Shown here: in pieces, positions 8,145 through 43,957 of the stretch
How positions within the stretch are numbered: position 1 is the first letter of the stretch
How the letters are laid out: each line of letters starts with the position of its first letter
NCBI GenBank assembly: GCA_029262055.1
Contig: JAJDAD010000074.1
Span: forward strand, 1-48,539
Length of the DNA stretch: 48,539 bases
Direction: 5' to 3'
DNA from: Candidatus Zhuqueibacterota bacterium
GTDB lineage: Bacteria; Zhuqueibacterota; Zhuqueibacteria; Oceanimicrobiales; Oceanimicrobiaceae
Translations under genes and position numbers: made by a program
The notes under the pieces: generated by a model
Seen by the model: the letters and a program-made list of their open reading frames with translations, nothing else
What the model was told of the DNA's origin: nothing
Database searches by the model: none

Positions 8145-10625
8145 ATGGAGATTTCCCGTAGAGAGTTTTTGAGATTATTAGGAGCTACCGGCGCCGGTGT
8201 TTCCCTGGCCGGTTTGGGCTGTGATTCTACCTGGTCGGTGCCGGATGAAATGTACGAAAGGGTTGTCGGGGCACCCGGAATCGAGACCTGGAAAACCAGC
8301 CTGTGTACGTTGTGTCCCGCTGGTTGCGGCATCAAGGTACGGTTGATCGACGGCATTCCCGTTGCGATAGGCGGCAATCCGCTCCACCCGGTGAATCGTG
8401 GTGGTGTCTGTCCCATGGCCAACGTTGGGGTTGAGGCTCTGTTCAATCCGGACAGGGTTACGGAGCCCTTGCGGCGAGTCGGCGCTCGTGGGGAGGGTAA
8501 ATGGGAGCCTGTTTCCTGGGATGAGGCCATCGAGACGGTGGGATCCCGTTTGCAGGGCTTGCGGGAAAGGAATGAGACGAACAGGCTGGCCTTCTTCACG
8601 AATCATGACAATACCCTGCGTTCCGATCTGGTGGCAAGATTTATGACAGCCTTCGGCTCCCCAAATCTGTGTGTATTTGGCAAGAACAACGCGTCGACCC
8701 TGGCAACCTACCTTACACAGGGCCACAAAAAGCCACTGAGTTACGATTTCAAGAACATCAAACTTCTCATTAATTTTGGCGCCGACTTTTTGGATGAAGG
8801 GCCCTCACCCGTTCGTTTCAATCAACTTTACTCTGAGTTCAGGAATCGCGGCGAGGGAAGAAATGTGAAAATAGTCCATATTGATTCCCGTTGTTCCCGC
8901 ACCGCCAGCATTTCCCATGAATGGCTGCCGGTTAAACCTGGCACGATGGCCGCCCTGGCTTTGGGGATTGCAAACGTTCTCATTAAAGATGGGCAATACG
9001 ACCGGGGCTTTGTGGCAGCAAACAGCTTCGGTTTTACCGACTGGAAGGATCGGGCAGGCAAGGTTCACCGGGGATTCAAAGCCTTGGTGGAGGAAGACTA
9101 TTATCCGGAAAAAGTGGCAAGAATAACCGAAATACCCGCTCGCAGAATTGTAGAATTAGCACGGACATTCGCTACGGTGGAGTCTGCTTTGGTTCTGGCA
9201 GGCGGGCAAGCCGGCAACAGCAGTAATGGCCTGTACACGCTCTGGGCTATAGAGTGTTTGAACGGGCTGAAGGGCAATTATAAGGACAATGGCAACATCT
9301 CAATCTGTCAGGAACCGCCATTCACAGAACTGCCCGAAGCAACAATGGACGAGGTTTCTTCAAAAGGACTGAGCCGGCCGGGAATGACGCGGTCCGTAAC
9401 TCCGTTCTGTTTTCCGGAAAATGCCGTTTCTCTTTTGCCCCAGGCGATCTTGCAGCAGCATCCCTATCCAATAGAAGTTCTCTTTCTTGCAAATGCAAAT
9501 CCCGTATTTAGCGCAACCAATCAGAGCGATTTTGTAGCCGCTCTCGAAAAAATTCCCTTCACCGTCAGTTTCAATTCTTTCGTCGATGAGACCAGTTTGT
9601 ACGCAGACTTCATTCTGCCTGACCACGTCTTCCTGGAAAAATACGAGGTGGTTCACACTGTTCCCACGGTGCCATTTTCACATCTTGGCATGCAACAGCC
9701 GGTGCTCGAGCCTTTGTATAATACGCGCAACACCGGGGATGTGCTTCTACAAATAGCCCGGAACATCGGTGGGACTGTTGCCTCGTCCTTCCCGTGGCCG
9801 GACTACAAAGAGTGCATCCAGTTTCACTTACAGGGTATTTACGAAAGAGGCGCGGGCACCATATTTTCAGAACGTATGGATGACGCCTGGCTGAAGTTTT
9901 TGAAAAGGCGCGGCTGGCAGGTCTTTGAATACAGCACTTTCGAAGAGTTCTGGCAGGTGCTGTTGGACAACGGTGGATGGTGGGATCCTTTCCCCGCTGA
10001 AACAGATTTCAGAACGATTTTCCAGACGCCTTCAAAGAGATTCGAGTTTTTCTCGCAAGGGCTGCAACGGGAAATCAGATCTCAAATACCAGGCACCGCC
10101 ACCGGCGAGGAGATCCGTTCACTGTTGCAGAAATGGAAGATCGAGGCCCGCGGGGATCTGGCGTTTCTGCCGCACTATGAATCTACGAGATTCGACGACA
10201 GCAACCCGGAATTTGATCTTCATTTGCTGCCATATAATCTCATCACCAATATTGCCGGTGGCGGATGCGTCCTGCCTATGATGCAAGAACTGTTCGGCAT
10301 GCTGGCGCGCGAGTACTGGGGTTCCTGGATCGAGTTTAACCCGGACACGGCCCGAAAACATGGCATCAGTGAAGGAGACATGGTCAAGGTAACCTCTTCC
10401 AAAGGAAGCCTTGAAGTCAAGGCGAAGCTTCTGCCAACCATCAAACCCGGGGTTGTCTACATGCCGGTTGGACTTGGGCACAAGGCCTACGGACGGTTTG
10501 CCAAAGGTATTGGCGTCAATCCTTATGAGATTTTCTTCGAGGATTATGATTCTATCGGCGGTGTCTCTTCTTTGACAAGCACGAAAGTTGCGGTAGAGAG
10601 AATCCGCGGAAAGGAGCAAGCTTAA
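8145..10625 (+). CDS. Molybdopterin oxidoreductase-fold subunit (QrcB/PsrA-like), Tat-exported
   Basis: 826 aa. The N-terminus SRREFLRLLGATGAG is a twin-arginine signal, followed by a lipobox-like LAGLGC. The N-terminal 4Fe-4S motif is intact (C54, C57, C61, C89; CX2CX3CX27C). The protein then follows the MopB fold to a C-terminal dinucleotide-binding domain (NPDTARKHGISEGDMVKV). In the region where a Cys, Ser or Sec ligand to Mo is expected (~residues 175-190, CVFGKNNASTLATY) I cannot identify a convincing ligand. QrcB and ActB are known to lack Mo, so a purely structural/electron-transfer role is possible. RBS AGAGGAG precedes the ATG; the next gene begins right after the stop. Confidence 0.9.
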   Translation: MEISRREFLRLLGATGAGVSLAGLGCDSTWSVPDEMYERVVGAPGIETWKTSLCTLCPAGCGIKVRLIDGIPVAIGGNPLHPVNRGGVCPMANVGVEALFNPDRVTEPLRRVGARGEGKWEPVSWDEAIETVGSRLQGLRERNETNRLAFFTNHDNTLRSDLVARFMTAFGSPNLCVFGKNNASTLATYLTQGHKKPLSYDFKNIKLLINFGADFLDEGPSPVRFNQLYSEFRNRGEGRNVKIVHIDSRCSRTASISHEWLPVKPGTMAALALGIANVLIKDGQYDRGFVAANSFGFTDWKDRAGKVHRGFKALVEEDYYPEKVARITEIPARRIVELARTFATVESALVLAGGQAGNSSNGLYTLWAIECLNGLKGNYKDNGNISICQEPPFTELPEATMDEVSSKGLSRPGMTRSVTPFCFPENAVSLLPQAILQQHPYPIEVLFLANANPVFSATNQSDFVAALEKIPFTVSFNSFVDETSLYADFILPDHVFLEKYEVVHTVPTVPFSHLGMQQPVLEPLYNTRNTGDVLLQIARNIGGTVASSFPWPDYKECIQFHLQGIYERGAGTIFSERMDDAWLKFLKRRGWQVFEYSTFEEFWQVLLDNGGWWDPFPAETDFRTIFQTPSKRFEFFSQGLQREIRSQIPGTATGEEIRSLLQKWKIEARGDLAFLPHYESTRFDDSNPEFDLHLLPYNLITNIAGGGCVLPMMQELFGMLAREYWGSWIEFNPDTARKHGISEGDMVKVTSSKGSLEVKAKLLPTIKPGVVYMPVGLGHKAYGRFAKGIGVNPYEIFFEDYDSIGGVSSLTSTKVAVERIRGKEQA

Positions 10626-18703: not shown

Positions 18704-18913
18704 CGAAAATAGTTTTTTCTATACAAGTCATATTCAACATGTCTCGTTTTTACTCTTTTCGGGACTATATTTTAGATAATCTTAGAATGCTCAGGTATCA
18801 AAGCCGAGTCCAGCAGGATGCTTTTTGATTCTTCCTGGTGAGTTAGATACTTTGGGATTGCTCCGGGTGCGATTTTTGTCTAAAAGTATCCATATTGGAC
18901 CCTTCGGACAAAC

Positions 18914-18941
18914 AAAAAAGGCTTCCCGATTGAGAAGCCTT
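18914..18941 (-). terminator. tRNA-Lys-type terminator, copy A
   Basis: AAGGCTTC ... GAAGCCTT stem with an A-run on its left side, which reads as a U-run on the - strand. It is nearly identical to the terminator below the intact tRNA-Lys gene at 43829-43853 and accompanies the tRNA fragment at 18970. Confidence 0.8.
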
Positions 18942-18969
18942 TTCTTTGATAATATTGATGTTATAGTTG

Positions 18970-19014
18970 TGCGTCGTCAGGGAATCGAACCCCGAACCCT
19001 GGGCTTAAGAGGCC
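18970..19014 (-). repeat. Partial tRNA-Lys(CTT) 3' half, candidate attachment site A
   Basis: 45 nt matching positions 43885-43929 of the intact tRNA gene with one mismatch (C at 18999 against T at 43914). It covers the acceptor 3' strand, T arm, variable loop and anticodon, then diverges, so it cannot be a functional tRNA. A direct repeat TTGCGTTA-AAG-TTGCGTTA lies at 19073-19091, and is also present beside copies B (imperfect) and C. Interpretation: displaced end of a tRNA gene left by integrase-mediated insertion, marking one edge of the island. Confidence 0.75.
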
Positions 19015-19405
19015 GATGGCATATCGCAAAATCTGTGCTAAGTCATTGTTTATTATTAGAGGTTTCGAATTATTGCGTTAAAGTTGCGTTATTTTAAGAC
19101 CACAACCCGAGGGGGAGCATCGAGATCAAGGTTATCCCAATGATCTTTTTCCCTCAAATCATCCCCGGTATCAGCCAACTTTTCAAATAGGCCCTTCCAA
19201 GAAATCATGCAATTTTAAACCTGGTGTGACCCGCCGGGGATATCGGTTCTATTTCCGCCCGGACCCGTTTGTGTTTCAGCTTTGAGCCTTTACCATTCGC
19301 CGGGAGGAGTAAAGCTAATATTTTTGTTGAAAACCACCAGAAGGATTGTTATTTCTTTCTATTCCCCATTTCAACATTCTACCAGAATTGAGCAGGGAGG
19401 AACGG
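19015..19405. other. Island left margin, non-coding
   Basis: About 390 nt between the tRNA fragment and the first island gene. Apart from the TTGCGTTA direct repeat (19073-19091) I see no gene; the RBS AGGGAGG of the trypco2 gene lies at 19394-19400. Confidence 0.5.
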
Positions 19406-19702
19406 ATGACTGAGAACATAGAACTTGCCAGCGCTATAACCAATCTACGTCAACAATTGCAGGAGGCTATTAAGGAGGGTGATGGAAAGGATTTGCGTTT
19501 TGCCGTGCAGGGTATTGAAGTCGAGCTGAAATGTTTGGTCAAGAGCGAAGGATCCGGAGGTGTCGGCGCAAAATTCTGGGTAATCAATGCGGAAGCCAAG
19601 GGAATGCACTCCCGCGAAGTCGTACAAACAGTGAAATTGAAATTACTGCCAATCGGTGAGGATGGCGAGATCCAGTGTCTCAGCGACGTTGGAAAGAGCT
19701 GA
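19406..19702 (+). CDS. Trypsin-co-occurring domain protein (trypco2-like)
   Basis: 98 aa from ATG 19406 (RBS AGGGAGG 6 nt upstream; the longer frame at 19346 has no RBS). It begins IELASAITNLRQQLQEAI and continues LRFAVQGIEVELKCLVK and GAKFWVINAEAK, the pattern of the small trypco2 family (LRxEL, velE, KFWVV). Family knowledge: these small proteins are encoded beside trypsin-like proteases in NTP-dependent conflict systems; their molecular role is not established. The protease gene begins 25 nt later. Likely a regulator or inhibitor/adaptor of that protease. Confidence 0.8.
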   Translation: MTENIELASAITNLRQQLQEAIKEGDGKDLRFAVQGIEVELKCLVKSEGSGGVGAKFWVINAEAKGMHSREVVQTVKLKLLPIGEDGEIQCLSDVGKS

Positions 19703-19727
19703 GCTCTAAGATATGGAGGAATTAAGG

Positions 19728-21098
19728 ATGGATCGATGGGATTGGATTGCGCAAGTACGGGCATCTGCGGGAAAAAAACAATATAGTTTCAGTACCGGCG
19801 TGCCGTTGAGCCGCCGATTTATTCTTACGACCGGCCATGGCATCAAGGGGTCAGCCAGTGTTAAGGTACGCTTCATCGCCGATCATCAGACGCCGGTATG
19901 GAAGACCTGGCGCCAGGCAAAAGTCGTCTGGAGAGGTAAGCAGGGTCTGGATGCCGCATTGTTACAGGTAGACAAAGTGGACGACCTGAGGTTCTTTCCG
20001 TATATTAGTTTCAGGCCAAACGGATCTTGGCATGGACTTGGTTTTCCGGCGGCAAGCAAGAGTGCATTGAACGAAATGCGCGTCGATACCGGTCTCAGCG
20101 GAAGTGTGACCCTGGGCGGACGTCTAACCGGAGATATTGAGATAACAATTGGACAGCCCCCGAAGGACGATTCAAAGTGGGCCGGCATTTCCGGCGCTCC
20201 GGTAGTATGGAACGACTATCTGATAGGAATCATCAAGAGCTTGAAGGGAAAATATGGAGGTGAAAGGCTTTCGGCTGTTCCAGTAGGGGCCCTCCTTCAG
20301 GATGATGCTTTTGTTGATCTAATACGCCAAGACAAGGACGAGTATTTCGGCGAGGTTGAAGCTCAGGTTGCGGCCATACTCAAGGACGCTTCCAGTCTGT
20401 GCAATAGTCTCCGGCGTCGGCTCGCCATCTCAGAGAGAGATGAGGAGAAAGTCGCCCGAAGCATGTTGGAGTACTCTAGTGTGGAAGAACTGATTGAAGC
20501 ATTCATCGAATTGAAGAACGGAAGAATCGGGAGCGAATCCCAGGGTGATTTACAGAAACTGATGAACAGACTGCTTCCGCTCCTTCATGATTGTCACGTT
20601 ACAGACCTGGAGAGGTTGAGAAAGGGGAGAGGCGGCGCCCTCAGGCTTCCTGCCACAACCAGGGCTGTTGCCGAGATCATACTGGCGAATGCCGAGCAAC
20701 GTGCGACCAGTTACAAGACGCCAGGGACCGTGACAGAGGACTTGGTCGGTAAGTTGTGCAGAACAACCATTGGTCGAGGTGTTCTTGATATGAAGGGCCA
20801 GGAGTTTTTCGAATTCGTAGAAGATGACCTGTTTACTTTGTTGCCTCCCGACTTCAGCGATAAGAAATATGATAAGAAGCAAGACAGGTTGAGGGAGCGC
20901 TTGCGGGTTCAGGCACGAACACTGAATATTCGCCATTATTACGTTTTTGATGAGGACCTTGATGATAGGTTCTCCGACCAGATGGACAAGTTAGTTGAAC
21001 TGTATCCTGAAGTCAGATTTCTATTCCTTTCGGACAGTAACTTGAGATCGACTCAGTATCGATTGACTGATTTACTAACAGTTTTTTTCGCAGAATAG
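19728..21098 (+). CDS. Cytosolic trypsin-like serine protease with C-terminal effector-associated region
   Basis: 456 aa from ATG 19728 (RBS GGAGGA at 19715-19720; ATG 19713 would sit on this RBS). A protease domain fills residues ~1-200, with a complete apparent triad: His37 (TTGHGI), Asp75 (GLDAALL) and Ser155 (GISGAP). No signal peptide is present, so it should act in the cytoplasm. The remaining ~250 residues are mostly helical (e.g. RSMLEYSSVEELIEAFIELK) and end in an alpha/beta-looking segment (HYYVFDEDLDD). They resemble effector-associated/adaptor regions of bacterial conflict proteins, but I cannot name the family precisely. Inference: the killing or signalling effector of the island system. 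Confidence 0.85.
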   Translation: MDRWDWIAQVRASAGKKQYSFSTGVPLSRRFILTTGHGIKGSASVKVRFIADHQTPVWKTWRQAKVVWRGKQGLDAALLQVDKVDDLRFFPYISFRPNGSWHGLGFPAASKSALNEMRVDTGLSGSVTLGGRLTGDIEITIGQPPKDDSKWAGISGAPVVWNDYLIGIIKSLKGKYGGERLSAVPVGALLQDDAFVDLIRQDKDEYFGEVEAQVAAILKDASSLCNSLRRRLAISERDEEKVARSMLEYSSVEELIEAFIELKNGRIGSESQGDLQKLMNRLLPLLHDCHVTDLERLRKGRGGALRLPATTRAVAEIILANAEQRATSYKTPGTVTEDLVGKLCRTTIGRGVLDMKGQEFFEFVEDDLFTLLPPDFSDKKYDKKQDRLRERLRVQARTLNIRHYYVFDEDLDDRFSDQMDKLVELYPEVRFLFLSDSNLRSTQYRLTDLLTVFFAE

Positions 21099-21114: not shown

Positions 21115-22071
21115 ATGACACGTTTAAAGATTGATGAAGAAAAGACGGTAGAACTTGCGACGCCTAAAGGCTCACCAAGACAAGTCCATGTTTTTGAAAA
21201 GGATTCTATTAAGGCCGTCAATGCCGCGATTGCGGCAAAACGCCCGCTGCTCGTGCGCGGTGAACCGGGGACCGGCAAAACCCAGCTTGCCCGGGCTGCC
21301 GCAAAAGAGCTGGGCTGGGCGTTCGTTTCTTCTACGATTGATTCAAGAAGCGAAGCATCGGATCTACTTTACCACTTTGATGCCGTCACCCGTATCGGCA
21401 ACGCGCAAATCGCGGGAGCCCTGGGAATTAGGGATGAAGAAAAGGTCCGGGCGCTGCTGAACAAACCTAATTTCATTCATCCGGGTCCGGTTTGGTGGGC
21501 CTTTGATTGGGGGTCAGCGCTGGAGCAGGCCACTCGCGTAAATGCAACGGTGCCTGTGCAGCACGACGAGGGTGACGCGGAAAAGGGCTGTGTTCTGCTG
21601 ATCGATGAAATTGACAAGGCGGACCCGGACCTTCCGAATGGTCTGCTGGAGGCGTTTGGTAGTGGTAGCTTTAAGCCGGAGGGGCTGGAGGATTTAGTTG
21701 AGAGAAAGTTGGAAGAACTCCTGGTCATAATTACCACCAACGAAGAGCGTGCACTGCCTGATGCTTTCCTGCGCCGGTGCCTCGTGTTACAGCTTTCTTT
21801 GCCGACAAAGGACCTTTTGGTGGATTTTTTTATCAAGCGAGGGGGGAAACACTTCCGCAGAGCTTCGAAAGAAGTCCTGCGTGAAGCAGCCATCCTTACT
21901 CGCGCGGACCGCGAACACTGGCAAAAGCTTGATTTGGCTGCGCCGGGCCTCGCCGAATACCTCGATCTTGTTCGCGCCGTCACGACTCAAGAAAAAAGGT
22001 CAGTCAAAAGACAACTGGCTCTCCTCGAGGAGATCGCTAAGTTTACGCTCAAAAAGCATCCGGAGGCTTGA
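21115..22071 (+). CDS. MoxR-family AAA+ ATPase
   Basis: 318 aa. Walker A is GEPGTGKT (residues 49-56), Walker B VLLIDEIDKAD (~160-170), sensor 1 IITTNEE, and an arginine-finger-like FLRRC follows. The acidic region between Walker A and B (RSEASDLLYHFDAVTRI) is typical of MoxR. The last base of its stop codon is the A of the next gene's ATG (TTGATG), and an RBS GGAGG lies inside its final codons. Family knowledge: MoxR ATPases work with vWA-domain partners as chaperone-like remodelers. Here the downstream protein has a vWA-like segment, which gives a vWA-MoxR pair. Confidence 0.93.
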   Translation: MTRLKIDEEKTVELATPKGSPRQVHVFEKDSIKAVNAAIAAKRPLLVRGEPGTGKTQLARAAAKELGWAFVSSTIDSRSEASDLLYHFDAVTRIGNAQIAGALGIRDEEKVRALLNKPNFIHPGPVWWAFDWGSALEQATRVNATVPVQHDEGDAEKGCVLLIDEIDKADPDLPNGLLEAFGSGSFKPEGLEDLVERKLEELLVIITTNEERALPDAFLRRCLVLQLSLPTKDLLVDFFIKRGGKHFRRASKEVLREAAILTRADREHWQKLDLAAPGLAEYLDLVRAVTTQEKRSVKRQLALLEEIAKFTLKKHPEA

Positions 22072-25000
22072 TGCAATTACGTAGCCGCGCCGATTTGGTG
22101 CGCGTTTTGGCCCAGAGCGACAACGATCCGGAGGTTGCGCACTTCGTTGGCTACCACCGCGAGTTACCTCCGGAGAAAGAGCCGGCGATTGCTGAGAAAG
22201 GTATCCGGGAAAGGCCATCTGTCAAACCGAAGCGTGCCATCGAGGTATTCAAACCGCAACAATCACATCTCAACTGGCAAGCCAGCCTGTTCTATTACGC
22301 TTCGCTTTTCATCCCGGGTAAAGAGGGATCTACACGTTTCACCCCGGCTCCGGAGCCTGTTGGCTATTCGCTGGATGAACTGCAACATCGCGAACTTCTT
22401 TCTGTCAAAGCCCCTCCGCGCATCCCCCCTCTCGTCTCATGGCCCAGGTTGCGGCCGCGACTTACCAGGTTACTGCAGGAGTCGTTCCGGACTCGCCAGC
22501 CGGATGTTGACGAGATTCTGCGAATTCTCAACCGGGGCAAAGTGCCGAGCAGTTTGCCGTTCAAGTACAGAAAACGCCTGCCCGGCAAGATAAGTATTTG
22601 GCTCGACCGAAGCAGTAGGCTTGTTCCTTTTCTGGAGGATCAGAACGCGCTTGCAATGCGGCTGCGTCGTCTGGTAGGAAAAAGAAATGTGGAATTCTAC
22701 TATGTGGACGACTGTGTTCAGTCACCGCAAGCATTCGATAGAACACGCATCGGCAGGCAGGCAGCTTCGCATCTGCAAAACGAATGCGTACTCATCCTGG
22801 GAGACCTCGGTTGTCTCGCGCAAGAACAGACTGCCGTAAGGCAGTGGCTGTTGTTAGCCAAACAGGCGCGACAAAGAAATATCAGAATGTTAGCTCTGCT
22901 ACCAGCGCCTGTCGGCAGGTGGCCCCGTGAACTCTTGAAGTCGTGCGAGGTGGCGAGCTGGGAACCTCCTGCAGCGAGACATCGGCAAAGCAGACAGCTT
23001 ATCGATCAAAGAGCGCAACGTTTGCTTAGTCTTTGTTCATACGCCACATGGATTTCTCCCGGTCTTTTGCGCACAGTCCGGCAACTGATGCCAGGCCAGG
23101 CGGATGCTGCAACGGAGGCGGATGTCTACATGCATCCGCAGGTTGGCCAGAGATCTGCGGTTGCTTTTACTATAGCCCGCGATGCGATCGATGACCTGCA
23201 GCAGCTTTTTTGCCAGGAACCCATCCAATTGCAGGAGGCGGTGGCTTCCGCCATACGCAACTGGCACAAGTCGTACGCCAGGGAGCTTTGGTACAGCGAG
23301 TTGCTGCGGCTTCCTAAATCTGCGCGTGCAGGATTCGCACAAGAAATCCCGGACGCTGAGAAGGATGTCGGCAGGTTGGCAGAGACCTATTTGAACCGGA
23401 CAAAATCAGTGCCTTCCCGGTTTATACCTGTACTAACTGAGTGGTTTCGAGACTTGGCCAATCGCGTGAGCCTTGAGCATGCGATATGGGATGAAGTCCC
23501 ATTATTGCGCAGCGTTTTTGTCAAGTTAGAGCAAGACAAGGAAGTCGCAAAAATGCCCATTGGGTATTCACCGGTAGAAGACGACAAACCCGGCCCCGAC
23601 CGCCTCTGGTCCGTCCGTCAAACCGGAGATACTTTCACTATCACCGAAACTGGCGCCGGTACACCGGACAAAGGAACGACCGGCAGCGCCGTGGGCCTCC
23701 TCCGCTCGACCCGGCCCTTCCTGCACTGCGTCTCTGCTGATGTTAGCGGGCTCGTGCAGGAGGGACACCTCGCTTCTGTTTTTCTCGACCCCCAAACCGG
23801 CGCCGTAATCAAAGAACAAGTCACCAAGCCAACCTGGGCCAATGACTTTGGAAAAGACAAATACGGCCTCTGGGCCGTATTGCAATATGGCGACGTGGAA
23901 CAACGCCTGCGCTACATCGAGCCGGGCAAATTCCTGATGGGCTCGCCGGCAAACGAGGTTGGCCGCTGGGACGATGAAAAGCAGCACCCGGTCACGCTCA
24001 CCGGCGGCTACTGGCTGTTCGACGCGCCGGTGACACAGGCTTTATGGCAGGCGGTCATGGGCGCTAATCCGAGTCGCTTCAAAGGTGATGATCGACCGGT
24101 AGAGCAAGTGAGCTGGAAGGACTGTGCCAGGTTCATCGAGAAACTGAACGTGGAGATACCCGGTCTCGGTTTGCAGCTGCCCACCGAGGCGCAATGGGAA
24201 TATGCATGCCGTGCCGGCACAGCAGCCGCGACTTATGCCGGTGATTTGGAAGATGAGACCAAGTCTTCAGTATTGACTGATATTGCCTGGTACAGGGCCA
24301 ACAGTGGCAGCGACACCCATTCTGTCGGCGAGAAGAACCCCAACCCCTGGGGCATCTATGACATGTTAGGCAATGTCTATGAGTGGTGTTCGGACTGGTG
24401 GTCCGGGGATCTTGGCGGCAAGCATGAGGTCGATCCGACTGGCCCCAAACGGGGCACCTACCGGGTCTTCCGTGGTGGCGGCTGGTACGGCCGCGCCCGG
24501 CACGTGCGTGCTGCCTATCGCGTCAGCTACGGCCCTGGCCACCGGGGCGACGACGTTGGTTTCCGTTGTGCCCGAGTTCAGGACAGCATGAGCTCAGGCA
24601 GGTCAGTCGGAGACGGCGGCGCGGATGCGCAAGCCGTCGAAGCTCCGGCAGGCGAGGGTCCGGTTGTCTTCGGTGCTGCCGGCACCAAGTATATTATCAA
24701 GCCGGAGCAAACTGTTGCCATTGCCGTGCACCGGGACGGCAGGCTGCAACTGCAATCGGACCAGGGCATGCTCACGGTTTCCGCCGTGACGAAACCCGGC
24801 TGGGCTGATGCCATGGGCCGGGATCGGTTCGGGCTCTGGCTCGACTTTAAATACAAAGAGGTTGAGCAGCGTCTGCGCTGGATTCCGCCGGGGCAGTTCT
24901 TGATGGGCTCACCAAAAGACGAAGCAGGCCGGTTTGATCGGGAGACAAGACATCTGGTCACGCTCACCCAAGGCTACTGGTTATTTGACACGCCGGTGAC

Positions 25001-25631
25001 GCAGGCACTTTGGCAGGCGGTTATGGGGGACAATCCCAGCCGGTTCAAAAGCCCAACCCGGCCGGTTGAAACGGTGAGTTGGGAAGCGTGCGCGGAGTTT
25101 ATCGAGAAAATCAACGGTGAGCTGCCCGAACTTCGATTGCGGTTGCCGACCGAAGCACAGTGGGAGTATGCCTGCCGCGCCGGTACAACGGCTGCAACTT
25201 ATGCCGGTGATTTGGATATCAAAGGTCTAAGAGATGCTCCTTTGCTCCATGAGATCGCCTGGTATGGCGGCAACAGCGCTGTGGATTTTGAGTTGGAGGA
25301 AAGATACGATTCTTCTGATTGGAAGGAAAAGCAGTATGACCACAAAAAAGCCGGGACTCATCCGGTAGGGTTGAAGAGGCCGAATCCGTGGGGACTTTAT
25401 GACATGCTGGGCAATGTTTACGAATGGTGCGAAGATCGGTGGATCGATGATTTTGGCGACCAACCGGCCTTAGATCCTGCTGGTCCTGAACAGGGCACCG
25501 ACCGGGTCATCCGTGGTGGCAGCTGGATCAGCATCGCCCGGGGCGTGCGTGCTGCCTATCGCGACCGCTACGTCCCTGGCTTCCGGCACGACCTCATTGG
25601 TTTCCGTTGTGCCCGAGTTCAGGAAGCATGA
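22071..25631 (+). CDS. vWA-like (SAV_2336-type) protein fused to two FGE-sulfatase domains with DGR variable C-termini
   Basis: 1186 aa. Residues ~120-330 resemble the SAV_2336 N-terminal region: RPRLTRLLQ, then a degenerate MIDAS-like IWLDRSS and an alpha/beta Rossmann-type segment (CVLILGDLGCL). A linker leads to two FGE-sulfatase (C-type-lectin-like) domains, ~616-838 and ~936-1186, each with [21 protein letters not shown] and YDMLGNVYEWC. Each ends in a variable repeat (24453-24576 and 25494-25617). The catalytic cysteines of true FGE are not apparent, so these are probably ligand-binding folds. ATG overlaps the MoxR stop. Inference: this is the diversified sensor and vWA partner of the system. 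Confidence 0.88.
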   Translation: MQLRSRADLVRVLAQSDNDPEVAHFVGYHRELPPEKEPAIAEKGIRERPSVKPKRAIEVFKPQQSHLNWQASLFYYASLFIPGKEGSTRFTPAPEPVGYSLDELQHRELLSVKAPPRIPPLVSWPRLRPRLTRLLQESFRTRQPDVDEILRILNRGKVPSSLPFKYRKRLPGKISIWLDRSSRLVPFLEDQNALAMRLRRLVGKRNVEFYYVDDCVQSPQAFDRTRIGRQAASHLQNECVLILGDLGCLAQEQTAVRQWLLLAKQARQRNIRMLALLPAPVGRWPRELLKSCEVASWEPPAARHRQSRQLIDQRAQRLLSLCSYATWISPGLLRTVRQLMPGQADAATEADVYMHPQVGQRSAVAFTIARDAIDDLQQLFCQEPIQLQEAVASAIRNWHKSYARELWYSELLRLPKSARAGFAQEIPDAEKDVGRLAETYLNRTKSVPSRFIPVLTEWFRDLANRVSLEHAIWDEVPLLRSVFVKLEQDKEVAKMPIGYSPVEDDKPGPDRLWSVRQTGDTFTITETGAGTPDKGTTGSAVGLLRSTRPFLHCVSADVSGLVQEGHLASVFLDPQTGAVIKEQVTKPTWANDFGKDKYGLWAVLQYGDVEQRLRYIEPGKFLMGSPANEVGRWDDEKQHPVTLTGGYWLFDAPVTQALWQAVMGANPSRFKGDDRPVEQVSWKDCARFIEKLNVEIPGLGLQLPTEAQWEYACRAGTAAATYAGDLEDETKSSVLTDIAWYRANSGSDTHSVGEKNPNPWGIYDMLGNVYEWCSDWWSGDLGGKHEVDPTGPKRGTYRVFRGGGWYGRARHVRAAYRVSYGPGHRGDDVGFRCARVQDSMSSGRSVGDGGADAQAVEAPAGEGPVVFGAAGTKYIIKPEQTVAIAVHRDGRLQLQSDQGMLTVSAVTKPGWADAMGRDRFGLWLDFKYKEVEQRLRWIPPGQFLMGSPKDEAGRFDRETRHLVTLTQGYWLFDTPVTQALWQAVMGDNPSRFKSPTRPVETVSWEACAEFIEKINGELPELRLRLPTEAQWEYACRAGTTAATYAGDLDIKGLRDAPLLHEIAWYGGNSAVDFELEERYDSSDWKEKQYDHKKAGTHPVGLKRPNPWGLYDMLGNVYEWCEDRWIDDFGDQPALDPAGPEQGTDRVIRGGSWISIARGVRAAYRDRYVPGFRHDLIGFRCARVQEA
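24453..24576 (+). repeat. DGR variable repeat VR1 (end of first FGE domain)
   Basis: 124 nt aligned without gaps to the template repeat at 26086. By hand count it differs at 19 positions, all of them adenines in the template. Encoded variable residues include Y, F, G, Y, G, R, H, V, S, Y, G, H, G, D, D, V in place of mostly Asn. The 3' end GGTTTCCGTTGTGCCCGAG is invariant and is followed by TTCA, against CTCA in the template. Confidence 0.95.
24612..24638 (+). repeat. Hairpin downstream of VR1
   Basis: GACGGC (24612-24617) pairs with GCCGTC (24633-24638), with an inner GCGC-GGAT-GCGC hairpin. It starts 36 nt after VR1 and lies within coding sequence. Position matches hairpins after VR2 and VR3. 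Confidence 0.65.
25494..25617 (+). repeat. DGR variable repeat VR2 (end of second FGE domain)
   Basis: 124 nt, gap-free alignment to the template. Sixteen differences by hand count, all at template adenines (for example AAC to ATC, GGC, CGC, TTC and CTC codons). The protein ends ten nucleotides plus the stop later (VQEA). Same TTCA versus CTCA boundary difference as the other variable repeats. Confidence 0.95.
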
Positions 25632-26085
25632 GCGCCGGAAGGCAAAGGCAAGGCGGCCCCGAAGCGGAGCGCAGGGGTAAGCCGGCAAAGTAAGAGAGAA
25701 AATCATGAGTGTCAGGTTAAGGTTTGTTTAAAGTGAATAGCATCAAATTGAAAGAGACAAATCAAGTTCGAATGTCATCCCTGCATGTTTTCAGCAGGGA
25801 TCCATCTGCCAGTTTTCAGATGCCCGATCAAATGACTTTGGGCATGACATTTAACCCGCGTTGCCATTTTCAAGTCTCGGGCTTTGGCGAAGATACCCTT
25901 GCTCTTGTTTAGCTGACGCTTACTTACTCTCATTTCTCATTTGCATATATGGCTTTTAAACAATTACTTAGATGTTATTCTGAGCACGCAGGCCCAATTC
26001 TCTGTTTCTACCAGGGAGCAAAAGTGTGCGAAGAATCTCCCCGGACGTTTGAAGATTCTTCGCGCTCAGGGTAAAGGCCCAAAAG
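25632..26085. other. Gap between VR2 gene and template repeat, with dispersed repeats
   Basis: About 450 nt with no gene I can support. It starts with the VR2 hairpin. Near 25770-25860 is a palindromic repeat-like stretch (GTCATCCCTGCATG ... GGGCATGACA). Near 26030-26070 is another (GAAGAATCT ... AGATTCTTC, with CTGAGC/GCTCAG flanks). Both look like dispersed intergenic elements. It is too short for a reverse transcriptase, and no Avd-like ORF is visible. Confidence 0.55.
25654..25684 (+). repeat. Hairpin downstream of VR2
   Basis: CGGC (25654-25657) pairs with GCCG (25681-25684), and inside it CCCC pairs with GGGG around GAAGCGGAGCGCA. A nearly identical element follows VR3. It starts 37 nt after VR2, just beyond the stop codon. 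Confidence 0.65.
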
Positions 26086-26209
26086 GGCACCAACCGGGTC
26101 ATCCGTGGTGGCAGCTGGAACAGCAACGCCCGGAACGTGCGTGCTGCCTATCGCAACAACAACGACCCTGGCAACCGGAACAACAACATTGGTTTCCGTT
26201 GTGCCCGAG
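26086..26209 (+). ncRNA. DGR template repeat (TR)
   Basis: 124 nt with 11 AAC codons when read in the FGE frame (e.g. [11 protein letters not shown]), the signature of a template whose adenines are hypermutated; AAC gives NNC codons that can never be stops. By hand count 30 of 124 bases are A, and across the three variable repeats all 56 differences fall on these; the 94 non-A positions are identical in all. The 3' boundary differs from the variable repeats at 26210 (C against T), consistent with the IMH*/IMH distinction. It lacks the hairpin found after each variable repeat. The 5' limit of the transcribed RNA is not visible. Confidence 0.95.
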
Positions 26210-26262
26210 CTCATGCGCTGACTGGATGGTCTGCACCTGAACCGGTCGTTATCCTGTCCGCC

Positions 26263-27234
26263 ATGAGCGGCAAACAGCAATTGGCCTCCGGTGTGCGAGT
26301 AGGCACTCGGGCCGGAAACTCACCGGAGCAGCCTTATTTCACTGATATGCAGATTTTCCAAGAAAAAATAAGCCATCCTCTGGTCTCAGGCTGTCCACCG
26401 AATTGGGCTTCGGCTTGGGGACAGGACCAACACGGTATCTGGATAGCCTTCACTTATAAGGATGTTGAGCAGCGGATGCGTTGGATTCCGCCGGGGCAAT
26501 TTATGATGGGTTCGCCCGAAAATGAGTCCGGCCGCTATGATGATGAAACGAAACATCGTGTCACATTGACTCGTGGTTACTGGCTGTTCGACACACCGGT
26601 GACCCAGGCGCTTTGGCAGGCGGTCATGGGTGATAATCCCAGTTATTTCAAAAGCCCTGCCCGGCCCGTTGAAGGGGTGAGTTGGGACGATTGCGGGAAG
26701 TTCATTAAAGCAATCAATGCAGCAATAGCGGGGCTTGACTTGCGCCTGCCGACCGAGGCGCAGTGGGAGTATGCCTGTCGTGCCGGCACAACGGCCGCAA
26801 CTTACGCTGGTGATTTGGATATTGAAGGCGAAAGAAACGCGCCAGTGCTCCATGAGGTTGCCTGGTACGGCGGCAACAGCGGCGTGGATTTTGAGTTGGA
26901 AGATGGTTGGGATTCATCGAGCTGGACTGAGAAGCAGTATGACCACGAGAAAGCAGGGACCCACCCGGTTGCGCGGAAAAAACCCAATCCGTGGGGTTTG
27001 TACGATATGCTCGGGAATGTCTGGGAATGGTGCGATGATCGTTGGGCTAGCGACCTCGGCGAGCAGGCTCAAGTAGACCCCGCCGGGCCTTCGGAGGGCC
27101 CCGACCGGGTCTTCCGTGGTGGCAGCTGGCTCAGCAGCGCCCGGGGCGTGCGTGCTGCCTTTCGCTTCTACGGCGTCCCTGGCCTCCGGGGCAGCCACAT
27201 TGGTTTCCGTTGTGCCCGAGTTCAGGAAGCATGA
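26263..27234 (+). CDS. FGE-sulfatase domain protein with DGR variable C-terminus (third copy)
   Basis: The frame is open from 26053 through the template repeat; possible starts are GTG 26137 (inside the TR), ATG 26263 (used here) or ATG 26347, none with a good RBS. The FGE domain starts at [14 protein letters not shown] and has [15 protein letters not shown] and [11 protein letters not shown]. It is very close in sequence to the second FGE domain of the preceding gene, and its last 41 codons are VR3. It has no vWA-like part. Likely a free, diversified binding protein that shares the retroelement with its neighbour; it may alternatively be expressed by read-through from upstream. Confidence 0.8.
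27097..27220 (+). repeat. DGR variable repeat VR3
   Basis: 124 nt, gap-free to the template, 21 differences by hand count, all at template adenines, including ACC to CCC and TAT to TTT outside the AAC codons. Ends with the same invariant 19 nt and TTCA boundary. The gene stops 14 nt later. Confidence 0.95.
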
Positions 27235-27255
27235 GCTCAGGCAGGCAAGGCGAGG

Positions 27256-27292
27256 CAGCGGCCCCGAAGCGGAGCGCAGGGGTAAGCCGCTG
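27256..27292 (+). repeat. Hairpin downstream of VR3
   Basis: CAGCGGC (27256-27262) pairs perfectly with GCCGCTG (27286-27292), and inner CCCC pairs with GGGG around GAAGCGGAGCGCA. It starts 36 nt after VR3. The core is shared almost base for base with the hairpin after VR2. Confidence 0.7.
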
Positions 27293-27392: not shown

Positions 27393-27590
27393 TTATTTTG
27401 AGTCATCAGGCGATTCAATATTCTCTATCTGTTTCTCCAACTGCGCAAGCATAGTCTCCAATTCTTCAACGAGATAGTTATCAGAAAGGAACTTTATTCG
27501 CTCTTCTCTTCTGTCGACAATCTCGGGCTTCTGAGGGTAATCTAGTCTCCTGAGCGTTTTGAATATCGCAGTTGTTGCTTTAAAGTTGCG
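27393..27590 (-). pseudogene. Gene tail remnant B (possible integrase C-terminus)
   Basis: An open - strand segment of 65 codons without a start, reading TTAIFKTLRRLDYPQKPEIV and DRREERIKFLSDNYLVEELE before its stop. It is homologous at protein level to the remnant at 43605-43784. Its upstream end coincides with the TTGCTTTA-AAG-TTGCGTTA repeat. Position next to a tRNA fragment suggests the end of an integrase or integrase-linked gene; I cannot name the family. Confidence 0.5.
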
Positions 27591-27713
27591 TTATTCTATG
27601 TCTAAACATGGGTAAATTTGAGAAGACCACAAATAAAAAAGGCTTCCCGATTGAGAAGCCTTCTTTGTTGCGAAGATTTGATATGAATGTAGTGCGTCGT
27701 CAGGGAATCGAAC
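27458..27713 (-). repeat. Long direct repeat B with partial tRNA-Lys end (candidate attachment site B)
   Basis: About 256 nt similar to 43651-43905. It contains part of remnant B, a tRNA-type terminator (27635-27662) and 22 nt identical to the tRNA-Lys(CTT) 3' end (27692-27713), then diverges. It marks the right edge of the conflict island. Confidence 0.75.
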
Positions 27714-43604: not shown

Positions 43605-43784
43605 TCAAGGGTGAAATTCGTGCAACGCCACAGCCTCGTCGAGCAGAACCTTCAATTGTTCAACGCTGTAGTTGTCAGAAAGGAACTCTATTCGCTCGTT
43701 TCTTCTGTCGACAATCTCGGGCTTCTGAGGGTGCTCTAGTCTTCTGAGCGTTTTGAATATCACAGTTGTTGCGTTAAAGTTGCG
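43605..43784 (-). pseudogene. Gene tail remnant C (possible integrase C-terminus)
   Basis: 59 open codons on the - strand (TTVIFKTLRRLEHPQKPEIV, DRRNERIEFLSDNYSVEQLK) with no good start; a GTG at codon 8 is possible. It parallels remnant B at 27393-27590. Its upstream limit coincides with the TTGCGTTA-AAG-TTGCGTTA repeat (43769-43787). It may be the end of an integrase gene next to the tRNA attachment site. Confidence 0.5.
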
Positions 43785-43905
43785 TTATTCTATGTCCAGA
43801 CATGGGTAAATTTGAGAAGACCACAAACAAAAAAAGCTTCTCGATTGAGAAGCCTTTCTGTTGATAATATTGCGGTAAACGTTGTGCGTCGTCAGGGAAT
43901 CGAAC
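43651..43905 (-). repeat. Long direct repeat C next to intact tRNA-Lys(CTT)
   Basis: About 255 nt similar to repeat B at 27458-27713, containing remnant-C sequence, the tRNA terminator and the 3' end of the tRNA. This copy belongs to the functional tRNA gene, so it is the intact site (attachment site C). Confidence 0.75.
43829..43853 (-). terminator. Terminator of tRNA-Lys(CTT)
   Basis: GCTTCTC (43836-43842) and GAGAAGC (43847-43853) form a perfect stem with loop GATT. Seven A residues at 43829-43835 read as a U-run on the - strand. Degenerate copies accompany the tRNA fragments at 18970 and 27692. Confidence 0.88.
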
Positions 43906-43957
43906 CCCGAACCTTGGGCTTAAGAGGCCCCTGCTCTGCCAGTTGAGCTAACGACGC
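43885..43957 (-). tRNA. tRNA-Lys, anticodon CTT
   Basis: 73 nt on the - strand. Acceptor GCGTCGT pairs with ACGACGC; the T arm contains GGTTCGATTCC. The loop CTCTTAA gives anticodon CTT (Lys, AAG codon). No encoded CCA follows. Intact gene; truncated 3' copies at 18970 and 27692 point to repeated insertion at this gene. Confidence 0.93.

Follow-up and report, generated by a model that had tools for sequence, protein, structure and literature searches.

Gene content of the locus

The window that we analysed makes up an entire contig (48,539 bases), and the cassette described here lies on its forward strand. A Trypco2 (trypsin-co-occurring domain 2) protein is encoded at 19346..19702 (PF19631, E=4e-24), followed by a trypsin-like peptidase at 19713..21098 (PF00089) and a MoxR-type AAA ATPase at 21115..22071, which adjoins the first of two target genes. 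Target 1 (22071..25631, 1186 aa) has an N-terminal region of about 600 aa, its family unassigned, and then two FGE-sulfatase/C-type-lectin domains, seen as two stretches of PF03781 (E=4e-82). Target 2 (26347..27234) has a single FGE/C-type-lectin domain, and its best PDB match is TvpA (2y3c, E=9e-29), the variable protein of the diversity-generating retroelement (DGR) of Treponema denticola; the matched stretches cover the variable C-terminal end. The start of target 2 was placed at the ATG at 26347 because the hairpin of the template RNA ends at 26328.

A template repeat (TR) of 124 nt, 30 of them adenines, lies between the two targets at 26086..26209, and it has three variable repeats (VRs), each at the end of a domain of the C-type-lectin fold. 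VR1 (24453..24576) closes the first FGE domain of target 1 and is internal to the protein, VR2 (25494..25617) is at the C-terminus of the same protein, and VR3 (27097..27220) is at the C-terminus of the separate, FGE-only target 2. An element of about 50 nt was also observed downstream of VR2 and VR3 (25637-25684 and 27240-27289). The two copies are 88% identical, and their core, CCCCGAAGCGGAGCGCAGGGG, could pair with itself, possibly as a stem-loop after the VR.

The position of the MoxR ATPase next to the target, with the trypsin-like peptidase and the Trypco gene nearby, is that of the RT clade 5A loci which Dore 2024 (PMC10907252) places in a "MoxR ternary conflict system" setting, with targets proposed to be antigen sensors. 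Judging from this gene neighbourhood, it is likely that the FGE/C-type-lectin domains sense ligands for a conflict system built on the MoxR ATPase and the trypsin-like peptidase (Dore 2024, Kaur 2020). The vWA component of the MoxR-vWA-VMAP arrangement (Kaur 2020) gave no Pfam match, and the low-confidence model of the target 1 N-terminus likewise had no vWA match. The AlphaFold models, with a mean pLDDT of 58 for the target 1 N-terminus and 63 for target 2, are too poor to define the binding face or to show how the N-terminus folds.

Template and variable repeats

The sequence-only reading had counted by hand 56 differences between TR and VRs, all of them on template adenines, with the 94 other positions invariant, and had proposed a realignment with substitutions counted by template base. 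We ran this check on the four 124-nt segments, and the computed alignment bore the count out. VR1, VR2 and VR3 differ from the TR at 19, 16 and 21 positions, every one a template A (19/19, 16/16 and 21/21), while no VR departs from the TR at any of the 94 non-A positions (0 mismatches in 282 comparisons). Adenines make up 30 of the 124 positions, and the probability that 56 of 56 differences fall on A by chance is ~10^-42.

Two further details of the same reading were also confirmed. The TR has 11 AAC codons in the reading frame of the VRs and these never yield stops; indeed, a stop codon cannot be reached from any of the 19 A-containing TR codons, and each VR could encode ~10^17 proteins. Across the VRs the first A of the AAC codons has changed 28 times out of 33 and the second 18 times out of 33. 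The 3' boundary, read as CTCA in the TR and TTCA in the VRs, resembles an IMH, GAGCTCA in the template against GAGTTCA in the VRs. When the genome was searched, the 22-nt 3' pattern was found at the TR and the three VRs only, and the further blastn matches to the TR in the 5.7-Mb genome were weak and all lay in other DGR loci.

Just upstream of the VRs, the DNA of the FGE domains is 28-34% diverged between copies. At that divergence, 0 differences in 94 non-A positions would have a probability of 10^-14 to 10^-17 if the copies had not been made from a common template. Together with the perfect agreement at non-A sites, this means that each VR was rewritten from the TR long after the domains were duplicated. 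The non-A divergence between TR and VRs is 0/94 for each, with a 95% upper bound of ~3% per VR (rule of three), and since none of the 282 comparisons differs the rewriting is recent by any clock. Adenine-directed mutagenic retrohoming into the three repeats from their single template, as the sequence-only reading had it, is well supported.

Missing reverse transcriptase and the repeats in its place

The same reading named the locus a diversity-generating retroelement. The relation between TR and VRs stands, but no reverse transcriptase (RT), Avd or HRDC is found anywhere in the contig, although the TR is more than 20 kb from both of its ends. A search of the 48.5-kb contig for the RVT_1 family gave no RT, and tblastn with four DGR RTs, three resident in the genome and one from the related locus L048, gave matches at chance level only; a cryptic RT was rejected on these grounds. 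Near the cassette there is neither an Avd nor an HRDC accessory gene, and the genome has no free HRDC; its single HRDC sits in a reading frame of 731 aa, the size of RecQ, and was rejected as a cognate accessory elsewhere in the genome. The three DGR RTs of this organism are on other contigs. The locus is an RT-less remnant, or else a DGR cassette that depends on an RT in trans.

The 454 nt from target 1 to the TR hold two dispersed repeats, to which no strand was assigned. M1 (25699..25928) occupies the place of HRDC and RT and has about 7 other copies in the genome, and M2 (25931..26068), with about 19 other copies, ends 17 nt before the TR. Relatives of M1/M2 occur in 4 of 7 genomes of the same family and in 0 of 13 other genomes of the class. 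Both have full-length borders common to other copies, they differ by 13-16% from the copies nearest to them, and the terminal branch of M2 is ~0.10. No clear terminal inverted repeats were found in M1 or M2, and they were rejected as true MITEs. They are residents of this genome and its family that occupy the site of the lost HRDC and RT genes.

Template RNA and its hairpin

Downstream of the TR a spacer of the template RNA (26210..26328) ends in a hairpin at 26286-26328, with an 8-bp stem and a GTAG loop, which is a candidate recognition element for the RT. Similar hairpins with differing stem sequences lie 3' of the TR in six other loci (L048, L049, L050, L052, C87 and C2), some of which served to define the motif, and the template of C67 has no GTAG hairpin. 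Among shuffled sequences, 0.2-1.4% have a hairpin of this kind. An independent check, made on the DNA before the RT genes of further genomes in the phylum, found it in 3 of 23 stretches against 11 of 438 control windows, a weak excess, the tested stretch being the accessory gene in many of the loci. The GTAG hairpin is thus a feature of some DGR classes and not of all, and we claim it for the class of the window only. The template 3' RNA had no Rfam match at E up to 5, and the spacer, folded as a single sequence, was no more stable than its shuffles (z -1.2). In phage BPP-1 the spacer 3' of the TR recruits the RT complex (PMC12875486), and by analogy the hairpin of the window may act in RT recruitment.

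Related loci

Searching with the MoxR protein brought up orthologous loci in other bacteria. One of them, L048 in an Isosphaeraceae MAG (JARLIH010000414.1), is complete, with the order MoxR, a 1193-aa double-FGE target, HRDC, RT, TR and FGE target. Its single TR serves three VRs, two of them within one protein, and every VR difference is at A. The order target 1, RT, TR, target 2 is also seen in L050 (Schlesneria) and L052 (Candidatus Accumulibacter contiguus), where nearly all TR/VR differences fall on A; HRDC was shown in L050. The complete L048 reveals which genes the cassette of the window has lost, and HRDC and RT were most likely lost in the window's own lineage. Three further MoxR-FGE loci, in deltaproteobacterial (L049), verrucomicrobial (L051) and Lysobacterales (L055) genomes, are also without an RT. 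L049 retains HRDC and a 5'-truncated TR, and L051 and L055 have targets only. RT loss recurs among the related loci.

Origin of the cassette

The cassette is flanked by direct repeats, 22-nt copies of the 3' end of tRNA-Lys(CTT) on the reverse strand at 18969..18990, where the tRNA similarity runs on to 19014, and at 27692..27713. The tRNA-Lys(CTT) gene itself is at 43884-43957. The tRNA-Lys 3' end with its downstream spacer occurs three times in the window (18908-19014, 27448-27713 and 43642-43929), which suggests successive integrations at tRNA-Lys. No integrase was noticed in the ORFs annotated between the two 22-nt copies. The N-terminus of target 1 has no match in 62 other genomes of the class, and its relatives are found in other bacteria, e.g. 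Planctomycetes, Verrucomicrobia and proteobacteria. The cassette was not found in relatives within the class. Since it lies between tRNA-Lys repeats and is absent from these relatives, an acquired island is suggested, and it is likely that the cassette arrived horizontally as a tRNA island. Plasmid carriage, for which there was a single weak match, was rejected.

Other DGRs in the genome

Three complete DGRs are present in the same genome, C87 and C2 with one VR each and C67 with three, on loci L019, L020 and L021. Each has an RT, an Avd-like protein and its own template, and their templates fail to explain the VRs of the window. According to Dore 2024 (PMC10907252), just 2% of DGR-bearing organisms have more than two systems. 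The resident RTs are ~31-34% identical to the RT of L048 overall, at best 40% over 251 aa. The targets of C87 and C67, as read from sequence, have NACHT-like NTPase regions before the FGE domain. In C67 the VR of the Avd-adjacent target (8339-8466 on the reverse complement of L021) has a 1-nt deletion compared to the template, which causes a frameshift at the end of the target protein. Pieces of RT genes also lie at the ends of contigs C38, C107 and C51. They resemble group II intron RTs and are probably multi-copy introns that break the assembly; for this resemblance they were rejected as the missing RT. Of 82 genomes of the phylum that were searched, 22 have DGR-type RTs at an E of 1e-45 or better, which is a high frequency.

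Interpretation

We consider it very probable that the window holds the template-and-target part of a DGR which has lost HRDC and RT in cis. The sequence itself shows the relation of TR and VRs, the targets, the gene order, the absence of RT and HRDC, the repeats at their site, the intact hairpin and the recent rewriting of the three VRs, whereas the mechanism is taken from studied DGRs and the sensor role from Dore 2024 and Kaur 2020. Given an RT, a transcript would begin upstream of the TR and extend through the 3' hairpin. Its reverse transcription would introduce errors at adenines, and the resulting cDNA would overwrite the terminal parts of three C-type-lectin (FGE-fold) domains, which belong to two proteins. 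At present the cassette may be dormant, it may be served by an RT from another part of the genome, or it may be RT-less in some cells only. Either all VRs would have been rewritten shortly before the RT was lost, or the rewriting would continue in trans or in cells that still have the RT.

There is about an even chance, in our judgement, that the RT disappeared very recently, or in some cells only, and that the VRs are a frozen snapshot. The lack of any difference in 282 non-A comparisons points to this, as does the repeated absence of the RT in the family (L049, L051, L055), and RT-intact and RT-disrupted variants have been found side by side (Dore 2024, PMC10907252). The event has to be recent, yet M1 and M2 look old. 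If they arrived when the RT departed, the rewriting must have continued afterwards, in trans; if they arrived earlier, the loss of the RT may be recent. It is conceivable, though we lean against it, that one of the resident RTs (C87, C2 or C67) reads the TR of the window and rewrites the three VRs today. The enzymes are at hand in three complete DGRs, TR and VRs agree at every non-A site despite the 13-16% divergence of M1/M2, the GTAG template hairpin is kept and is also present at C87 and C2, and Dore 2024 (PMC10907252) infers trans activity for the RT-less DGR 4/5. However, the VRs in that study match the TR of an RT-bearing locus while the template of the window is private, the RT classes differ and the resident loci use Avd and not HRDC, so trans use may fail; and M1/M2 may predate the RT deletion, in which case their divergence does not date the loss. 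More specifically, a working orphan, which stably keeps a private TR and three targets without an RT of its own and depends for their rewriting in trans on RTs of another class, with a different accessory protein, via the common hairpin, seems doubtful to us.

The assembly is a draft of 114 contigs, 97% complete, and a cognate RT within the unassembled ~3% of the genome is rather unlikely. That the RT was removed by an error of assembly or binning is highly improbable: the 454-bp interval is contiguous, M1 and M2 have full-length borders common to other copies, and at the other contig ends there is no RT gene of the needed class, only the pieces that, judged by their sequence, resemble group II intron RTs. 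As the FGE domains are paralogous, their tandem duplication followed by gene conversion, without any reverse transcription, was also considered. This is already refuted by the adenine bias (56/56 at A, P 10^-42), the flanks are 28-34% diverged and the TR is outside the functional target reading frames, and its probability is negligible.

DGRs as such are already known, and the window cassette adds to them a DGR-type template-and-target unit without its own RT. It keeps the template, the hairpin and three freshly rewritten VRs, and with three complete DGRs in the same genome it is a natural test of whether RTs serve foreign templates in trans, which is its main value. The common hairpin is a candidate for what the RT recognises. 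DGRs in the MoxR setting have been proposed as bacterial adaptive sensors.

Comparison with known systems

One close counterpart is L048, which has the same gene order, the double-FGE target, three VRs on one TR and a related template 3' hairpin. It is complete, with HRDC and RT between target 1 and TR, whereas the window has neither. The DGR 8/9 of Thiohalocapsa PB-PSB1 and the RT clade 5A loci (Dore 2024, PMC10907252) also have a MoxR ATPase directly before the target, whose N-terminal extension contains no known domain and whose C-terminal part is a lectin domain. They share with the window, too, a further short target that consists of the lectin domain only, and Trypco2 and trypsin-like genes nearby. 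The window differs from them in lacking the RT and the accessory gene, and in having two variable lectin domains in target 1.

Thiohalocapsa DGR 4 and 5 (PMC10907252) resemble the window in that dispersed repeats replace the RT gene, several VRs lie in one target and the setting is that of the MoxR ternary system. Their VRs, however, match the template of an RT-bearing locus, while the template of the window is local and has no match in any other locus, and their repeats are MITE-like, whereas M1/M2 have no clear terminal inverted repeats. Three VRs on one template, two of them in one protein, are precedented: L048 has the same, DGR 4 of Thiohalocapsa has three VRs in one target (PMC10907252), and the DGR of T. 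denticola has seven targets (PMC4891356). The latter also shares several targets per template and an FGE-type lectin variable protein (TvpA, 2y3c) with the window, and its accessory gene, HRDC, is of the type found in L048, but its targets are scattered, several of them are predicted lipoproteins, and the RT is present. The DGR of Bordetella phage BPP-1 is similar in its TR with a 3' spacer RNA and in its mutagenic retrohoming, and differs in having an Avd accessory protein, a phage tail target and the RT in cis.
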